Assembly (NCBI RefSeq): GCF_000805455.1
Contig: NZ_JSUS01000071.1
Span: 248,001 to 312,000 of the forward strand
DNA length: 64,000 nt
Reading direction: 5' to 3'
DNA from: Acinetobacter sp. A47
GTDB taxonomy: Bacteria; Pseudomonadota; Gammaproteobacteria; Pseudomonadales; Moraxellaceae
A model generated the notes under the pieces. The model ran no database searches. It worked only from the letters and a program-made list of their open reading frames with translations, and was not told the DNA's origin. Below, one piece after another: positions 1,686 to 8,701 of this stretch. Within the stretch, counting starts at the first letter, position 1; each line of letters begins with the position of its first letter. Made by a program: the position numbers and the translations under genes.

Positions 1686-2264
1686 TTATGTGTTCTCTAA
1701 TTCTTTCCTTCTTAAAAATAAATAACTTGCTCCACACACAACACCACCAATCGCCCCAGTCAGATGAGCTTCGATGAGAACCGGACTACCAATCAGCTGG
1801 GCTGTTCCTGTTTGCCCGAAGGTATTTTCCCAAATCAGTTTTGCAGCAATCAGGGCCAACACCAGCAAGGCAAATTTGCGTTCTTTCCGGTATTGCAGAT
1901 ATACCAGCCCGACTGCACTGTATAAACCATGCAGCACGCCGGAAAGTCCAGCATAGGCCTCGATATAAGGCAGATAAAAATAAAAAACCAAACTGATGAA
2001 AGGCGGCAAGATCAGTAGCAATGTCCATAAATGCCAGTTGCGGACATGAGGAAAGATGAAAGGCAGACAGGCAAAAGCCAGCATATTTAACAGAAAATGC
2101 ACCCAGCCCACATGTACCCAGTGGGCAGTCCACAAACGCCAGAACTCGCTGAGCAAGCTGGGTCTCCAATAAATGAAATGATCAGCAAAAACTTGCAGAC
2201 ATGCCGATACCGAAACACAGATCGCGATCAAAATGACTTTTTCTATCCATATTTGATCTTTCAT
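1686..2264 (-). CDS. Rhombosortase-like rhomboid-family intramembrane serine protease
   Basis: Small rhomboid-family membrane protease of 192 residues with about six hydrophobic segments. The motif GLSGVLHG (residues 106-113) places the predicted nucleophile at Ser108; His167 in EAHLTGAIGG is the predicted catalytic partner; the early HVGWVHFLLN segment (51-60) matches the rhomboid H-x3-N region. GxSGxLHG is characteristic of rhombosortases, which cleave the C-terminal GlyGly-CTERM sorting tail of secreted proteins; in Acinetobacter such proteases act on type II secretion substrates. No protein with a GlyGly-CTERM tail is encoded nearby, so the substrate must be elsewhere. It lies between the TRAP permease and a lipoprotein on the same strand, separated from the latter by a hairpin, so it may not share their function. 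Confidence 0.75.
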   Translation of the reverse strand: MKDQIWIEKVILIAICVSVSACLQVFADHFIYWRPSLLSEFWRLWTAHWVHVGWVHFLLNMLAFACLPFIFPHVRNWHLWTLLLILPPFISLVFYFYLPYIEAYAGLSGVLHGLYSAVGLVYLQYRKERKFALLVLALIAAKLIWENTFGQTGTAQLIGSPVLIEAHLTGAIGGVVCGASYLFLRRKELENT

Positions 2265-2290
2265 TTATCTACCACCTCTTGAAAAACAGA

Positions 2291-2326
2291 CCTTTTACAA
2301 AGTGTAGAGGCTCACCTTGTAAAAGG
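2291..2326 (-). terminator. Inverted repeat downstream of lipoprotein gene, probable terminator
   Basis: A 10-bp perfect stem (CCTTTTACAA at 2291-2300 with TTGTAAAAGG at 2317-2326) with a further 3-bp inner pairing. On the minus strand it follows the stop at 2341 and precedes a short T-rich run, so it probably ends the lipoprotein transcript before the rhombosortase start. Confidence 0.6.
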
Positions 2327-2340
2327 CCGTTTAATTCAGG

Positions 2341-3441
2341 TTACTCCGCTGGCGTTTCTTGCGCAGGAGCCGCCTCATTTTGTGCCGGTGCAGATGCGCC
2401 ATCGCCACCATCAAAGAGCGAATCCAGTTCGGCCGAGCTTTCCTGTTTATCATCCCAGAACGTGCTCATGCCTTCATCGCCCGCTCTCACACCGGTATGT
2501 TCAGTCCAGTAACGGTCTGCAATACCACGCACCATCAAGCCGGCCATTTTATCAATCAGCCTGAACTGTGGATTTGCCGGTTTGTCATCCCCTGTGGCCG
2601 CCGCATAGGAACGCAGTGCATCGCGTAACTTGGCATCGTCCCCACTGGCCTGTGCTGCCACTGCATACAAGGCATGTGATAAACGCACCCCTTTCTTCTC
2701 GCCAATGGCCATAGACTGTTTCATGGTGGCATACGGTTCCGGTTTACCATCGCCCGCGCCTGGCAACAAGGTCCAGATCACGGCGCGAGTCGCCATTGGC
2801 GCACCCCAGAATTTTTCATTATCCAGACAGGTCATGCCCCGCTCCACAATCCCGGCGATATCCTTAGGCACGTTGACTGCACCACCCGAATTGATGTCAT
2901 TGGTCATGGCTTGCAAGCCACTCACCATTCCCAACAAGTAAACTGTCTGATCCAGATCATTGCGCATGGTCGGACATGAGTCGCCTAATTTATATTTGTA
3001 TTTGGCTTCCCAGCGATTGGCAAAAAGTTGATAACCTGCATATTGGCGTTCAGCAGCAATTGCTGCCCAGCGTTTCTGTTCGATCCGTGCATCCTGGGCT
3101 TCAGATACCTGACCGGCCTTAGAGGCACGCAAGTAGCGTAATTCAGCTTCCAGCGCCTGATTTTCAGCACAAATTCCTGCTGCAGTATAGAGCAAGACCG
3201 CCATGCGGGTCGGGTCTGCCCCCATGTCCTTGGTTGACATCACTGCAGGTGTCAGGGCATTGCCCGAATTACACACCATTTCAGCATCATCCATGGCTAA
3301 AATCGGTGGAACAATATGCTTTTCACCAAAACCCAAGGCAACATTTGCCCCGGTCTTGATCACATATGAACATCCGGACAACATTGTTGATGTCAGTAAG
3401 GCAACTGCCACACCTTGTCCCATTTTATGCAGTTTAGACAT
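2341..3441 (-). CDS. Predicted lipoprotein, possibly TRAP transporter T-component (TatT-like)
   Basis: Predicted periplasm-facing lipoprotein of 366 residues. The start at 3441 gives a type II signal peptide with lipobox LSGC (Cys24). The mature part is alpha-helical in character, with alternating Ala/Leu-rich helices and paired Cys (VCNSGNAL, GICAENQ, DSCPTM, MTCLDNEK); the C-terminal 25 residues are Ala/Pro/Glu-rich and probably disordered. Helical lipoproteins of this sort associated with TRAP permeases are known as TatT (T-component), trimeric proteins that contact the binding protein. With a TRAP permease gene 0.8 kb downstream on the same strand, that is the most likely identity, but it rests on context and general resemblance rather than a motif I can point to. 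Confidence 0.5.
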   Translation of the reverse strand: MSKLHKMGQGVAVALLTSTMLSGCSYVIKTGANVALGFGEKHIVPPILAMDDAEMVCNSGNALTPAVMSTKDMGADPTRMAVLLYTAAGICAENQALEAELRYLRASKAGQVSEAQDARIEQKRWAAIAAERQYAGYQLFANRWEAKYKYKLGDSCPTMRNDLDQTVYLLGMVSGLQAMTNDINSGGAVNVPKDIAGIVERGMTCLDNEKFWGAPMATRAVIWTLLPGAGDGKPEPYATMKQSMAIGEKKGVRLSHALYAVAAQASGDDAKLRDALRSYAAATGDDKPANPQFRLIDKMAGLMVRGIADRYWTEHTGVRAGDEGMSTFWDDKQESSAELDSLFDGGDGASAPAQNEAAPAQETPAE

Positions 3442-3601
3442 ACTTCCTGTCCCTCTAATAATTTGTTTTTTCCTTTTAGCTGTACCTTATCAGATGCAAT
3501 ACTTGAATTAAAGAGTAATTGCTCTAATGATCACAGAACATTTTGACATACTTCACAAAGCAATGAATTGACAGATATGCAGGAATCGCCGAATTTCAGG
3601 C

Positions 3602-3641
3602 AAAAAAAAGTAGCATTGCGACGGTTCAGCACATGCTACTT
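3602..3641 (-). terminator. Rho-independent terminator after tiny membrane protein gene
   Basis: Stem AAGTAGCA (3608-3615) / TGCTACTT (3634-3641), followed on the minus strand by a run of eight T. It lies 33 nt past the stop of the 33-residue ORF at 3675 and so marks the end of that short transcript, supporting the ORF as a real gene unit. Confidence 0.75.
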
Positions 3642-3674
3642 ATTAACTGGGAAAAACGTAAAACTGTTGTTCTT

Positions 3675-3776
3675 TTAGTTTTGTTGAAAATAATCCTTTA
3701 GTAATGTTCCGGCTCTTCCTACAACAATCGCCATCACGATTGCGATTACCAGAAACATCCACATTGAAATCTCCAT
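3675..3776 (-). CDS. Tiny single-span membrane protein (33 aa), paralogue of upstream neighbour
   Basis: A 33-residue ORF with a strong ribosome binding site, GGAGGT, four bases before the ATG at 3776. The product is one hydrophobic helix (residues 4-19) followed by GRAGTLLKDYF and a polar end. It is a clear paralogue of the next upstream gene: both begin MEI, carry W at position 6, and share FLVIAIV, AIVVGRAGTLL and an aromatic-containing end. The order hydrophobic helix then R/K-containing tail predicts an outside-in topology. A terminator follows. Function unknown; small membrane proteins of this size usually modulate larger complexes or stress responses, but nothing here says which. Confidence 0.75.
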   Translation of the reverse strand: MEISMWMFLVIAIVMAIVVGRAGTLLKDYFQQN

Positions 3777-3800
3777 AGAGACCTCCTACACTTTTCGTAT

Positions 3801-4004
3801 CTACTTCTGGTAGATACGAGATTGGCGTTCATCACCGACATTCACGGGAGTGTGATATATTGATGACACTTTCAATCTCTTTCTCTTGCTCATAGCAACG
3901 GGTTGCTGTGATTCAAGATATTCCCTGAGTAAAGTTCCTGCTCTTCCTACTACAATCGCAAAAACAATTGCGATCACCAGAAACGACCATGTTGGAATTT
4001 CCAT
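3801..4004 (-). CDS. Small single-span membrane protein (67 aa), paralogue of downstream neighbour
   Basis: The start is set at ATG 4004 because a perfect GGAGGT lies five bases upstream; a longer in-frame reading from 4085 lacks such a site. The product has one membrane helix (residues 4-19) ending in VVGRAGTLLREYL, then about 35 polar, basic residues (SKRKRLKVSS) not found in its 33-residue paralogue. The stop lies 24 nt before the start of that paralogue, so the two are probably one transcript. The shared N-terminal half and ribosome binding region indicate tandem duplication followed by loss or gain of the tail. Function unknown. Confidence 0.75.
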   Translation of the reverse strand: MEIPTWSFLVIAIVFAIVVGRAGTLLREYLESQQPVAMSKRKRLKVSSIYHTPVNVGDERQSRIYQK

Positions 4005-4211
4005 TTTGGACCTCCACCATACTTTACGTTGGTGTTTGTACTTTAACGAAAATAATCCGGCAGTGAGGGTCAGATTGTCTGACAATCATAATTTTCATAT
4101 TTTTTTAGAGTATTTAATCTAACAATTTAGACAAAAAATCTTATTTTAATCTTTATATTATTGAAAATAATAATTTTATTATTTATATACAGATGTAGAA
4201 TTGTCAAACAA

Positions 4212-4607
4212 TCAGGCCAGTTTTGCCAGTACTTTCAGGTTTTTCCATTGTAAATATGACAGCTGATCCCACCAGATAATGAAATTTTTATGCTTTGGAT
4301 CAGAAAAATACAGCACCACATAAGCCTGGTGATCTATGATTTTACTTATCTGCCGACACTCAATCTGGCCGGAGAGATCATCAAATTCAAATGTCCATTC
4401 CTGTTGATGCAGATGCTCAAAACGTTTCAGCTGAGGCTGCCGGAGAAACAGCAACCAGCTCAGGAACAGCAGGACGCAACTACTTAGCCATAATGCCAGG
4501 GACAATAATGAATAACTTAAAAACAGAATAAACAGCAGGACAAAACACTGCAATGCAATCGCAAAACGACTGTATTGCAGCTCAAAAACCCGATTAGCCG
4601 TGGACAT
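4212..4607 (-). CDS. ygfX: YgfX-like membrane protein, partner of SdhE
   Basis: A 131-residue protein with two adjacent N-terminal membrane segments (about residues 15-55) and a soluble C-terminal domain with WTFEF and YFSDPKHKNFIIWWDQL. This architecture and its position immediately after sdhE match YgfX (also called CptA), the membrane partner of SdhE; in E. coli the pair has been described as a toxin-antitoxin-like module affecting cell division proteins, a role that is debated. The start at 4607 overlaps the sdhE stop by 14 nt, indicating translational coupling. Sequence identity within this family is low, so the call rests largely on synteny and topology. Confidence 0.75.
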   Translation of the reverse strand: MSTANRVFELQYSRFAIALQCFVLLFILFLSYSLLSLALWLSSCVLLFLSWLLFLRQPQLKRFEHLHQQEWTFEFDDLSGQIECRQISKIIDHQAYVVLYFSDPKHKNFIIWWDQLSYLQWKNLKVLAKLA

Positions 4608-4851
4608 AATGTTTAAGTTTGCGAATAAATTCTTTCAGTTCGGCCCGGGGTGGCTCGCCCACTTCCATAAACCAGTCCAGCAAATCCGGGTCTTCCTGAT
4701 CAACCAGCTCTGCAAACAAGGCTTTTTCAGCAGGATCTGCCGTGAGATAGTGGTTTTTTACATAGGGATCAAAATATACATCGATTTCTTTTAGACCACG
4801 ACGTGCGCGATATACCACTTTACGTTCTTCCAGCGTCATTTCATCAGCCAT
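4594..4851 (-). CDS. sdhE: FAD assembly factor SdhE
   Basis: Small cytoplasmic helical protein that promotes covalent attachment of FAD to succinate dehydrogenase subunit SdhA. The family signature is visible as ARRGLKEIDVYFDPY, with the RGxxE core, near the N-terminus, and the later EDPDLLDWFMEVGEPP is the typical conserved DxxDLL-W segment. I choose ATG 4851 (85 residues) because GGTGGAAG sits about seven bases upstream; in-frame ATGs at 4854 and 4866 are closer to or upstream of that site. The gene overlaps ygfX downstream by 14 nt. The sdh operon itself is not in the window. Confidence 0.9.
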   Translation of the reverse strand: MADEMTLEERKVVYRARRGLKEIDVYFDPYVKNHYLTADPAEKALFAELVDQEDPDLLDWFMEVGEPPRAELKEFIRKLKHYVHG

Positions 4852-5038
4852 CATATCTTCCACCATGCAACATTTTGCCGCCTAGTTTACCCGATCCGCG
4901 TTTAACTTCGCAGCGTTTTTTCTGAAGTGACCAAATACATCAATCAAATTGAGCATTGATCACATTGTCCCCTATTTTCCATTTCTTGTATGGTGAAGCA
5001 GACCATCTAAATTCAACACCTCAGGGAAAATATAACAA

Positions 5039-6211
5039 ATGCAATCAGGTGCAATCCGTCCGGTTCCAAATATGCTTCCACGCAAGCTGTTTACTTCAGA
5101 TCATGAAGCATTTCGTGAAACTGTACGTAAATTCTATGAAAAAGAAGTTGTCCCGAATATTGAAAAATATGAGAAACAACAACATGTTGACCGTGACTTA
5201 TGGAATAAGGCCGGAGAACTGGGCCTATTGTGTACCACCATGCCGGAGCAATATGGTGGTTCAGGTGTCGACCGGCTCTACAGCATGATCCTGATTGAAG
5301 AACAGGCTTATGCCATGGACTCAAGCACAGGCTTTTCCTTACATTCGGATATTGTGGCGAACTATATCAACAACTTTGGTAATGAGGCACAAAAGCAGCA
5401 CTGGCTACCCAAAATGGCAACTGGCGAAACCGTGACAGCAATCGCCATGACTGAACCAGGGACAGGTTCCGATCTGCAAGCCGTCCGTACCACCGCAGTA
5501 CTGGATGGCGATGACTATGTGATCAATGGTTCCAAGATTTTTATTACCAACGGCTATCTTTGCGATATGGCCATTGTGGTATGTAAGACCGGCAACAATG
5601 AAAAGGGATCGGCCAACCTTTCCTTGATCATCGTTGAAGCAGATCGTGCTGGTTTTAGTAAAGGCAAACCGTTAAATAAAATCGGGATGAAAGGTCAGGA
5701 TACCTGCGAACTGTTCTTTGATAATGTCCGTGTACCGAAAGAAAACCTGCTGGGTATGGAAGGTATGGGCTTTATCATGCTCATGAAAGAACTGGCCTGG
5801 GAACGCATGCTGGTCGCCATTATCTGTCAGGCAGGCGCAGAGGCCGCTTTTGCGCATACTGTACAATATACCAAAGACCGCAAAGCCTTCGGCAAAGCCA
5901 TTGGTACCTTCCAGAATACCCGTTTCAAGCTGGCCGAATTACGCACCGAAATCGATTTTTGCCGTACTTATCTCGATCGCTGTATGGAACTGCAACTTGA
6001 AGAAAATTTAGGTGTCGATGCTGCGGCTGCTGCAAAATATAAAATTTCCGATATGTTTTCCAAAGTGGTCGACGAGTGCCTGCAGTTGCATGGTGGTTAT
6101 GGCTACATGCTGGAATATCCAATTGCCCGGGCCTATATCGACAACCGTGCCAACCGTATTTATGCAGGTACCAATGAAATCATGAAAGAGTTGATTTCCC
6201 GTACCCTGTAA
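5039..6211 (+). CDS. Acyl-CoA dehydrogenase of the long-chain/isovaleryl type
   Basis: FAD-dependent acyl-CoA dehydrogenase of 390 residues that introduces the first double bond in beta-oxidation or branched-chain degradation. Domain order is the standard alpha-beta-alpha fold: FAD-binding TEPGTGSDL (138-146) and the C-terminal LQLHGGYGY (349-357) and IYAGTNEIMKE. The usual catalytic Glu of the YEGT motif is replaced by Ala376; instead Glu255 in ELAWERM occupies the alternative catalytic-base position used by long-chain acyl-CoA and isovaleryl-CoA dehydrogenases. The ATG at 5039 is taken; an in-frame ATG at 5072 would trim 11 residues. The gene stands alone, with a terminator directly after it. 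Substrate chain length is inferred only from the base position. Confidence 0.9.
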   Translation: MQSGAIRPVPNMLPRKLFTSDHEAFRETVRKFYEKEVVPNIEKYEKQQHVDRDLWNKAGELGLLCTTMPEQYGGSGVDRLYSMILIEEQAYAMDSSTGFSLHSDIVANYINNFGNEAQKQHWLPKMATGETVTAIAMTEPGTGSDLQAVRTTAVLDGDDYVINGSKIFITNGYLCDMAIVVCKTGNNEKGSANLSLIIVEADRAGFSKGKPLNKIGMKGQDTCELFFDNVRVPKENLLGMEGMGFIMLMKELAWERMLVAIICQAGAEAAFAHTVQYTKDRKAFGKAIGTFQNTRFKLAELRTEIDFCRTYLDRCMELQLEENLGVDAAAAAKYKISDMFSKVVDECLQLHGGYGYMLEYPIARAYIDNRANRIYAGTNEIMKELISRTL

Positions 6212-6225
6212 TCACAGCAAAACCG

Positions 6226-6258
6226 AAAAGGGAGCATAAAAAATATGCTCCCTTTTTA
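6226..6258. terminator. Bidirectional rho-independent terminator
   Basis: Stem AAAGGGAGCATA (6227-6238) / TATGCTCCCTTT (6243-6254) with A-run before and T-run after, so it can stop both the acyl-CoA dehydrogenase transcript (plus) and the convergent DUF2059 gene (minus). Confidence 0.9.
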
Positions 6259-6259
6259 T

Positions 6260-6754
6260 TTATTTGCCTTCTACTTTGTCATTGACAGCTTGCGGGTTCA
6301 TCCGTTGCATCAACTGCTTGACCTTGGGATTTTCACTATATTGCTGCATGGTGGTATTGAGTGCATGACGCGCATGCTGTGTGGTGAAGTGTGCTACCTC
6401 AGTACCGACATCGCTAGCCTTCTTGGCCCAGACCTTGCCTTCCGCAGATTGGTAGAAATTTAAGGCAGCCTGTAGTTCTTTTTGGCTAAAGCTGTCTACA
6501 TAGCGCTGCACAATAAACTGCTTCCGTTGTTCACTATTCAGATTTTTATTTAAATCGGTATAAAAGCTTTCTGGCAGGTCTTTGGGTAAACGCATCCGGA
6601 TCTGTTCTAAAATCATTTTATCAGTGCTTTGCAACCCCTGTTCCGTACCATCAACCGCTACCAGTTGTTGTGCAAGCGCTTCCTTCTGTTTTGCATCATC
6701 TGCAAAAGCCAAACTGCTTGATAACATGATCCCCAAAATAATAAGTTTTTTCAT
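6260..6754 (-). CDS. DUF2059 family periplasmic protein
   Basis: Predicted exported protein of 164 residues. The start is placed at ATG 6754 because it gives a clean signal peptide (MKKLIILGIMLSSSLAFA, cut before DDAKQ); the upstream ATG at 6790 would put a charged stretch before it. The mature part is helical, with the FYQSAEGKVWAKKA block that is the hallmark of DUF2059 domains. Such proteins are widespread in proteobacteria and of unknown function. It converges on the acyl-CoA dehydrogenase gene, sharing a bidirectional terminator with it, and is not obviously part of an operon. Confidence 0.75.
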   Translation of the reverse strand: MKKLIILGIMLSSSLAFADDAKQKEALAQQLVAVDGTEQGLQSTDKMILEQIRMRLPKDLPESFYTDLNKNLNSEQRKQFIVQRYVDSFSQKELQAALNFYQSAEGKVWAKKASDVGTEVAHFTTQHARHALNTTMQQYSENPKVKQLMQRMNPQAVNDKVEGK

Positions 6755-6880: not shown

Positions 6881-8371
6881 TTATGACACCAGTTTAGGTT
6901 TGCGCTCAGCCTGCACATCACGGCTATGGAATTGTAAGATACCATCATTAAACTTGGCATCCTTCAATTCTTTACGGTCTGCCAGATAGTTATTGGTAAT
7001 TTTCCAAGGTGCCTGCTTGCCTTGTTTAGGCATCACATCTGCAGCACGGGCAATATAACCGGAAGACATCTTGCCCATAATGGTGTCATGTTCGCGTTGA
7101 GATGGATCTGCATGCGCAATCACTTCATCAAAACCATTTTGATCCATATGATTTAATAAACGGCAGATATAATCTGCAGCAATATCAACTTTTAAGGTCC
7201 AGGATGCATTGATATAGCCAATAATCATGGCCATATTCGGCACATCACTCACCATTACACCCTGATATAGCATGTGTTGTGAGGTATCCATCGGTTTACC
7301 GTCAATTGAACCTTGGACACCACCTAAAATCTGGATTTCAAGACCGGTTGCAGAAATCACAATATCCGCCTCCAGATGCTTTCCTGACTTCAGCTGGATG
7401 CCATTGGCCGTGAATTTCTCGATCTGGTCGGTTTCTACACTCGCCTTACCTTCACGCAATGCCTTGAATAGATCACCATCCGGCACCACACATAAGCGCT
7501 GGTCCCAAGGATTATAGCTCGGGGTAAAGTGTTTCATGTCCACTTTACCTTTCAGCTGCAACTCAATCCCTTTCAGCAATAAGCGACGTACTGTTTTTGG
7601 ATATTTCTGTGCCAGTGCATAGATACCGCGTTGCATGCCAATATTACGTGCACGGGTAAATTTATAAGCCATTTCTTCCGACATGAATTTACGGGTTTTT
7701 TCGTAAATGAAATCAATTGAAGGCACTGTCGCAATATAAGTCGGTGAACGTTGTAACATGGTGACATGCCCTGCTCCGCCTTTCACCATGGAAGGAACTA
7801 GGGTAATGGCTGTAGCTCCACTGCCAATAATCACGACTTTCTTACCCGTATAATCCAGGTTTTCTGGCCAGTGCTGCGGATGGATAAACTGACCTTTAAA
7901 ATCTTCCTGTTTCGGGAATTTCGGTGCATAGCCCTGATCATAGTTATAGTAACCCGTGCACCCCATCACAAAGTTTGCCGACCAGGTCTGTTTTTTCTTA
8001 TTGTTGTCTTCAATCTCGACAAACCACTTTTTCTTGGTTGAATCATAATTTGCAGAAAGTACACGATGACCAAAATGGATTTTTTCTTTCAACTGATTTT
8101 CATTGATGACATCGCTGAGATAGCTCTTGATTTCAGAACCGCTGGCAAGCACCTTTTCCTTCGCCCAAGGTTTGAAATTAAAGCCAAAAGTCGACATATC
8201 CGAATCTGAACGGATACCAGGATAACGGAATAAATCCCAAGTCCCACCAAAACTGTCACGACGTTCTAATATTTCAAATTTACGTTGGGGGCAGTTCTTA
8301 GACAGATGCACAGCTAACCCGATCCCAGAGATGCCTGCACCAATAATTAATACATCAACTTGCTTTTCCAT
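6881..8371 (-). CDS. almA: Flavin-binding monooxygenase AlmA (long-chain alkane degradation)
   Basis: Class B flavoprotein monooxygenase of 496 residues. It has an N-terminal FAD motif GAGISG (11-16), the Baeyer-Villiger fingerprint FxGxxxHxxxW as FKGQFIHPQHW (158-168), and a second dinucleotide motif GSGATA (183-188) for NADPH. The whole sequence matches my recollection of AlmA from Acinetobacter, which was identified by mutagenesis as required for growth on very long n-alkanes (about C32 and above). Start ATG 8371 gives MEKQVDVLIIGAG and the expected length; an upstream in-frame ATG at 8446 would add 25 residues that do not belong to the family. It is monocistronic, with a 330-nt AT-rich upstream region that ends at the Sel1-repeat gene. 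Confidence 0.9.
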   Translation of the reverse strand: MEKQVDVLIIGAGISGIGLAVHLSKNCPQRKFEILERRDSFGGTWDLFRYPGIRSDSDMSTFGFNFKPWAKEKVLASGSEIKSYLSDVINENQLKEKIHFGHRVLSANYDSTKKKWFVEIEDNNKKKQTWSANFVMGCTGYYNYDQGYAPKFPKQEDFKGQFIHPQHWPENLDYTGKKVVIIGSGATAITLVPSMVKGGAGHVTMLQRSPTYIATVPSIDFIYEKTRKFMSEEMAYKFTRARNIGMQRGIYALAQKYPKTVRRLLLKGIELQLKGKVDMKHFTPSYNPWDQRLCVVPDGDLFKALREGKASVETDQIEKFTANGIQLKSGKHLEADIVISATGLEIQILGGVQGSIDGKPMDTSQHMLYQGVMVSDVPNMAMIIGYINASWTLKVDIAADYICRLLNHMDQNGFDEVIAHADPSQREHDTIMGKMSSGYIARAADVMPKQGKQAPWKITNNYLADRKELKDAKFNDGILQFHSRDVQAERKPKLVS

Positions 8372-8701
8372 TTTTTTTATACCCTGTATAAACCATGACT
8401 TTATTAAAACACAAATTTGACAATACGCAATGTCAAGTTCAGTCATTCATCGGTTTTTTTATATCAGTTCGGGACATTTTGATAAAAATTTGCTGTCAAA
8501 AAAGTTGAGATTTTTGCTTGGATTTGTTTTATAAGAGGCTCTTAGTTAAAAGAAAAGATAGTGTGTTTAGATACCTTATCGGCTCGAGTTCATTAGAAAA
8601 ATAATATTTAAAAAATTCATAAAAATAAAAACCATTCTAGAATCTTTTATACTTGAATGGCTTATAAAAAATATAAAATTAAATCAATAATTTAAAATAG
8701 A

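Follow-up and report, generated by a model that had tools for sequence, protein, structure and literature searches.

A candidate acyl-CoA-linked operon of tiny membrane proteins in Acinetobacter, with operator sites of the AlkR type

What are the two very small open reading frames that lie side by side on the minus strand at positions 3675-4004 of the window (the whole 64,000-nucleotide stretch of DNA that was analysed), and when would their products be made? ORF A (3801..4004, minus strand) encodes 67 amino acids and ORF B (3675..3776, minus strand) 33 amino acids with the same helix as in A but without its tail; both rest on the ORF list and on a reading-frame check of the loci. The coding regions are 24 nt apart and form a direct repeat of 93 nt with 80% DNA identity at an offset of 228 nt, and the two proteins are 74% identical across 31 residues. 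The sequence-only reading that preceded this analysis had described two adjacent, related tiny genes, each with a perfect GGAGGT ribosome binding site, and both points are confirmed, the Shine-Dalgarno sequences lying on the minus strand 5 nt ahead of the ATG of ORF A (4010..4015) and 4 nt ahead of that of ORF B (3781..3786). The upstream neighbours are a gene for a ygfX-like membrane protein (4212..4607, minus strand), whose weak Cpta_toxin match (E 0.0033) falls below the cut-off, and sdhE (4594..4866, minus strand; PF03937, E 3e-20), and the downstream neighbour is a conserved lipoprotein-like gene of no assigned function, called from sequence and synteny (2341..3441, minus strand). An imperfect palindrome ahead of the lipoprotein gene, AGAGTAATTGCTCT (window 3512-3525), has similar words in L252 and L255 and may be an operator for a different regulator. 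An acyl-CoA dehydrogenase and an FMO-type monooxygenase, the latter presumably AlmA-like, are also encoded near the locus (window 5039-6211 and 6881-8446), as they are in two A. baumannii records.

A protein search with the 67-aa query (E<=0.01) matched 92 of the 119 Acinetobacter genomes, own genome included, and one locus per genome, 92 in all, was analysed; the genomes share kinship and the locus counts are therefore not independent. The reading frame is kept in other species, an outcome that clears the refuting condition of a frame not conserved in other strains set in the sequence-only reading, and the tandem duplication reported earlier applies to 32 of the 92 loci, A. baumannii records among those carrying both copies, whereas 60 have a single copy, by which is meant one ORF found by profile, decayed second copies lying outside that count. 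By this locus, genome G105 is the nearest relative. Single-copy forms range from 26 to 53 aa with starts as called by script; the 330-nt scan used the first start per locus, and L073 is apparently mis-anchored. A single gene at L026:1501-1602 begins like A and ends like B, and looks like the result of a deletion between tandem copies. Over a 23-codon core, pN/pS is 0.127 for B and 0.219 for A (32 loci each) and 0.352 where only one copy is present (59 of 60 such loci); the value for the A tail is 0.296 (18 loci). An identical B protein in 13 loci is encoded by nine different DNA sequences. Purifying selection thus plainly acts on the family at the codon level, in line with the earlier proposal of real, selected microproteins. 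Neither A nor B matches a family in Pfam or NCBIfam at E<=1, a search of the PDB gave no convincing relative (two chance-level hits, E 4), and the searched literature, outside which most subscription papers fall, contained no publication recognisable as dealing with this locus. The expectation that such genes are missed by annotation is right for one A. baumannii record, in which neither copy is annotated, and only half right for a second, in which the 33-aa copy is annotated but the longer copy is not.

The predicted helix has A-x3-A-x3-G along one face and G-R-x-G-T at its end. Residues A12, A16, G20, R21, G23 and T24 are invariant among 28 aligned members; L091, L092 and L015, which stand outside that alignment, deviate at some of these positions. 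A12-x3-A16-x3-G20 constitutes a small-residue stripe of the type that serves helix packing, while R21 and the K/R-D/E that follows likely mark the cytoplasmic end of the helix by the positive-inside rule. An AlphaFold2 model of ORF A (mean pLDDT 68), informative on helix boundaries only, predicts one long helix (residues 5-33) followed by a basic, low-confidence tail. The basic tail previously noted on the longer copy is indeed present in A, but is lineage-specific.

Members of the family also occur elsewhere. The own genome encodes two more tandem members (G000:C40:242872-243097; L203:2873-3173), located between a 541-aa ORF, taken to be an NAD synthetase, and a stretch carrying hemJ (Pfam UPF0093). 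In the 11 genomes whose second locus was analysed (including L093-L095 and L204-L210), it contains 2 to 4 copies, the final copy bearing a longer, conserved acidic tail. Outside Acinetobacter, one copy is present in each of four matching genomes of a sister genus in the same family, and a weak relative occurs in a second genus (G125). An order-level search returned the own genome as the sole match (1 of 293 at E<=0.001).

The surroundings of the locus are as constant as the genes themselves. The lipoprotein gene lies downstream in 92/92 loci, sdhE upstream in 91/92 (the remaining contig ends there) and the ygfX-like gene upstream in 90/92, while a rhomboid-type protease is present in all 62 stretches of at least 4.9 kb. 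Such synteny with sdhE and the ygfX-like gene, together with the sdhE-like and ygfX-like ORFs upstream of the sister-genus locus L211, would be expected if the microproteins were a constitutive accessory of their neighbours, for instance in the maturation of succinate dehydrogenase (SdhE) or for the YgfX-like protein, with the operators described below a minor modulation. However, an operator-bearing promoter region separates the microprotein genes from ygfX, members of the family occupy the second locus away from sdhE, and in L252-L256 no intact microprotein gene was found (L252 retains a recognisable remnant), while the ygfX-like gene and the lipoprotein have been retained. An accessory role of this kind is accordingly judged improbable.

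The region upstream of the first copy contains the palindrome AATTGTYNRACAATT, at positions -208 and -82 in the own genome. Scored as ATTGTYNRACAAT over 12 positions, the operator is represented by site 3 (ATTGTCTGACAAT, 4074..4086), an exact palindrome match identified by sequence scan against the AlkR footprint (PMC12042122), by site 1 (ATTGTCAAACAAT, 4200..4212), 126 bp from site 3 and touching the stop codon of the ygfX-like gene, and by a degenerate site 2 (4114..4126), 40 bp from site 3, which retains an intact left half-site and matches at 9/12; fuller palindromes occur at the site-2 spacing in other species. A site of at least 11/12 is present in 92/92 loci and an exact site in 87/92, as compared to 1.75 and 0.05 loci, respectively, in dinucleotide shuffles of the same regions. 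The own genome contains five exact sites against none for a reversed-pattern control: two at this locus, one before gntR, one before an apolipoprotein-like gene and a fifth, which may be a chance occurrence, between argS-like and ftsN-like SPOR-domain genes (G000:C1:34850-34862, L217). The palindrome is present in 59/60 genomes, with 0-2 control occurrences per genome, and the shuffles and the reversed-pattern control together rule out chance palindromes.

Most loci contain more than one operator. Sites of at least 10/12 number two in 65 loci, three in 16, four in nine and one in two. The 167 site pairs fall largely into discrete spacing classes, with 34 at 40-41 bp, 13 at 75-76, 14 at 85-89, 29 at 115-117 and 50 at 124-127, the other 27 being scattered and none lying 118-123 bp apart. 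Distances of 115.5 and 126 bp correspond to 11 and 12 DNA turns, and the clades therefore differ by one turn, a difference which fits, as expected, proteins bound on one face of the DNA. The divergent microprotein gene of L257, missed by the 67-aa search, is preceded by two sites at a distance of 42 bp, one of them exact and the other 11/12. In L252-L256, the best sites match at 11, 9, 10, 10 and 9 of 12 positions, none being exact, and operator loss is only partial, since L252 and L255 retain two near-sites 116 bp apart. In the sister genus, where the microprotein is quite different in sequence, two operators 41 bp apart precede it in 3/3 loci scanned. The palindrome is absent from all 11 second-locus stretches scanned, and common AlkR-type control of the second locus was rejected on this count; there is likewise no AlkR-type site near L212, the weak relative in the second genus. 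This mode of control is thus not common to the whole family.

The palindrome points to a particular regulator. In the parts of the AlkR study drawn on here, AlkR is described as a GntR repressor of alkB2 in P. aeruginosa, which protects ATTGTCAGACAAT upstream of that gene and is released from DNA by C16- and C18-CoA, a response known for this P. aeruginosa protein only; alkane genes are treated as its targets, GntR-AlkB pairs being reported chiefly from Pseudomonadaceae and AraC-AlkB pairs from Acinetobacter (PMC12042122). The palindrome upstream of the microprotein genes equals the AlkR footprint sequence. A GntR/FCD gene outside the window (L221) adjoins smc in the own genome, with an exact palindrome 72 nt upstream. 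Its product combines a GntR HTH (PF00392, 7.5e-14) with an FCD domain (PF07729, 2.4e-9), and among solved structures AlkR of P. aeruginosa SJTD-1 is by far the nearest (9ISW, E 8.5e-38; the next at 2.7e-11), the two proteins being identical at 82 of 211 positions overall and at 44 of the initial 70. Sequence matches place ATTGTCNNACAAT at its own promoter and at those of its predicted targets. Inspected by eye, the 3-kb stretch of L221 contains an smc-like ORF downstream and a permease-like ORF upstream, and no alkB-like ORF.

The gntR gene was found in 112/119 Acinetobacter genomes. Among the best 30 loci by score, and hence nearer relatives, an exact operator lies upstream of gntR in 29/29 readable cases (L244 being unreadable by motif). 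The seven genomes in which GntR is absent all lack the microprotein too; 20 of the 27 microprotein-negative genomes keep GntR, and six keep the lipoprotein neighbour. In the sister genus, gntR adjoins smc and bears an 11/12 site in 4/4 cases, and the second genus encodes a GntR with an exact site. An order-wide scan for GntR relatives, with crude smc and AlkB motifs, returned 30 loci, 19 of which were unreadable by the HTH motif; a site scoring 11/12 or better in the 600 nt ahead of the gene was present in three of the 11 readable loci (own, L326 and L327) and in none of the other eight. The HTH stretch of L327 is nearly that of AlkR, and both L326 and L327 have an AlkB-like motif nearby. With three loci bearing the site and eight without it, the operator is therefore shared with the AlkR branch and not with all distant relatives.

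A further gene with an AlkR-type operator is found beside carA (L220; G000:C23:18098-18761) and codes for an amphipathic protein of 192 aa made up of repeats, whose match to the Pfam Apolipoprotein family stays below threshold (E 5e-12; 46 bits, where the cut-off is 90). This apolipoprotein-like gene occurs in 55/60 genomes of the genus. In its best 30 loci by score, likewise nearer relatives, an upstream site of at least 11/12 is present in 30/30, as counted by coordinates, and is exact in 21. A role in lipid inclusions or lipid binding is a guess. The microproteins constitute, as far as comparative genomics can tell, a new family under a recognisable AlkR-type switch.

The sign of this control depends on where transcription starts. 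In a leader alignment of 91 of the 92 loci, the only conserved promoter-like word past site 3 is TAMATT-like, followed by ACC-AAC, and no conserved -35 was found. In the window this places a putative -10 (TACAAA, 4035..4040, minus strand) 33 nt past site 3. An alternative putative promoter, TTGACA-18-AATAAT, is located at site 1; the putative -10 past site 3 looks the better of these candidates. Activation would fit too, as site 3 precedes the putative -10 by 33 nt and a conserved -35 is lacking. By analogy with AlkR, repression, via a loop, is mildly favoured over activation.

Downstream of the genes, the terminator proposed in the sequence-only reading was missed by a consensus scan and detected as an inverted repeat (3605-3616/3633-3644) followed by eight U. 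The hairpin feature (3602..3641, minus strand) folds at -14.7 kcal/mol (z -3.1; 3/200 shuffles equally good), and with its near-invariant loop and T8 is a candidate RNA element by fold and conservation. It is recognisable as a 30-nt element in 95 of 98 loci (<=6 mismatches), with the loop GAACCGTCGC invariant across the 95 and the T run T8 in 94 and T9 in one. The mean pairwise identity of hairpin and T run is 97.9%, as against 40% upstream and 56% downstream, and a search of the own genome at zero mismatches finds the core word a single time. On such conservation, the downstream hairpin appears to be more than a terminator. It could be a small RNA, sense or antisense; a terminator hairpin with a U run of at least seven, as in Hfq-type sRNAs, is present. 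The sRNA Aar, described as ~100 nt long with a CUCC seed close to the 5' terminus and a pair of hairpins at the 3' side (PMC11472050), was considered as a candidate and is unlikely given that layout.

The same features raise the alternative that the locus serves mainly as an RNA gene, whose transcript or 3' end acts as a small RNA through the hairpin loop, with the ORF a second product or hitch-hiker. Besides the degree of conservation, this would account for the retention of the hairpin in the four loci L252-L255 after loss of the ORF, and for a paired change from T-A to C-G at hairpin pair 2-29 in six loci. However, the remaining outer pairs, six in number, are invariant or changed on one side only, and covariation is thin because only pair 2-29 shows a double change. 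Furthermore, L038 and L257 encode the ORF without this hairpin, L256 has neither, no Rfam family matches window 2000-6500, and the protein is under purifying selection. A locus that is primarily an RNA gene is therefore considered doubtful, while the hairpin itself represents a separate, sharply conserved RNA candidate.

The plus strand at window 3568-3600 contains a TTGACA (3568-3573) that is directed towards the hairpin and antisense to the microprotein genes. Across the loci, an opposite-strand TTGAC (+67 to +71) is situated 17 nt from an AAATTT (+43 to +48), both mostly conserved, with a poor -10, and the block is a possible antisense promoter. An antisense RNA from such a downstream promoter could silence the hydrophobic micro-peptides if these formed a type I toxin family, with which their size, hydrophobicity and tandem copies would agree. 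The family nevertheless occupies a single chromosomal place throughout the genus, no relative was confirmed in viral contigs, and AlkR-type operators, an open, strong Shine-Dalgarno and the poor antisense -10 do not fit such an arrangement. The matching four plasmid and two phage records are all from Acinetobacter, three of them being 3.7-4.1 Mb in size, and the three plasmid- or phage-labelled stretches examined all show the chromosomal sdhE neighbourhood; as these are chromosomal sequence, hits in them are no evidence of mobility. A type I toxin family is thus highly unlikely. More broadly, a toxin-antitoxin system or an origin on plasmids or phages was discarded as unlikely on the distribution, which is neither mobile nor patchy. 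As for the records themselves, NZ_CP064203.1 and CP040042.1 (L316, L348) are "plasmids" of 4 Mb and 0.54 Mb that carry chromosomal genes, or a chromosomal neighbourhood, of the rpoA/sdhE type, and CAKLQF020000004.1 (L317) is an Acinetobacter chromosomal contig deposited as phage.

The reading preferred here, held with rather better than even confidence, is that of an acyl-CoA-linked microprotein operon under AlkR-family control. The regulatory evidence favours such control, and nothing was found that speaks either way on the induction under envelope stress suggested in the sequence-only reading. The small operon would encode single-span inner-membrane microproteins governed by an AlkR-type GntR/FCD regulator. 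The AlkR-like protein encoded beside smc would bind the sites jointly on the same helix face, probably forming a DNA loop, and a build-up of long-chain acyl-CoA would cause it to let go or switch state. Production of the microproteins would then accompany growth on long-chain fatty acids, alkanes or stored wax/TAG, or an overload with these compounds. Least certain among these steps, the small-residue face would pack on a larger lipid enzyme or transporter of the inner membrane and tune its activity. In the two-copy loci, B would keep the short form and the tail of A would serve another contact.

The evidence predicts that an Acinetobacter relative of AlkR controls both the microprotein family and the apolipoprotein-like protein, and the AlkR-type sites give the first testable idea of when the microproteins are made. 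The set of multiple operators with one-turn spacing steps offers natural material for the study of looping by FCD regulators. A lipid-linked membrane regulator would be widely useful, given that hospital pathogens as well as degraders of alkanes belong to the genus.

Several known systems bear comparison with the locus. CydX, KdpF and AcrZ tune larger membrane partners, and are likewise small, with one helix, short soluble ends and a conserved chromosomal gene; the Acinetobacter microproteins differ from them in having no Pfam or NCBIfam match and in that no known large partner shares their operon. The parallels with SgrS/SgrT would be regulation tied to a metabolite, a short ORF whose product acts on the membrane, and a hairpin followed by an extended run of U; on the other hand, the elements come in a different order, in some lineages the hairpin has survived the loss of the ORF, and any pairing is putative. 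A full counterpart of SgrS/SgrT would be a dual-function, acyl-CoA-responsive RNA under looped AlkR-family control, combining a microprotein that tunes a lipid enzyme with an Hfq-type hairpin acting on mRNAs, with the apolipoprotein-like gene co-regulated in a genus-wide lipid-handling regulon; this most far-reaching version is given a low probability. The closest likeness is to AlkR (9ISW), the regulator of GntR/FCD kind and the palindrome ATTGTCNNACAAT being common to both systems. AlkR acts on the gene of an alkane monooxygenase, which has a single main site, and the regulator is coupled to alkB2 in Pseudomonas, whereas the predicted target in Acinetobacter is a microprotein operon with mostly at least two phased sites, and gntR lies beside smc without an adjacent alkB. 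Finally, the AlkR site covers the -10 in Pseudomonas, while site 3 in Acinetobacter would act from its place upstream of the putative -10, at the 33-nt distance given above.
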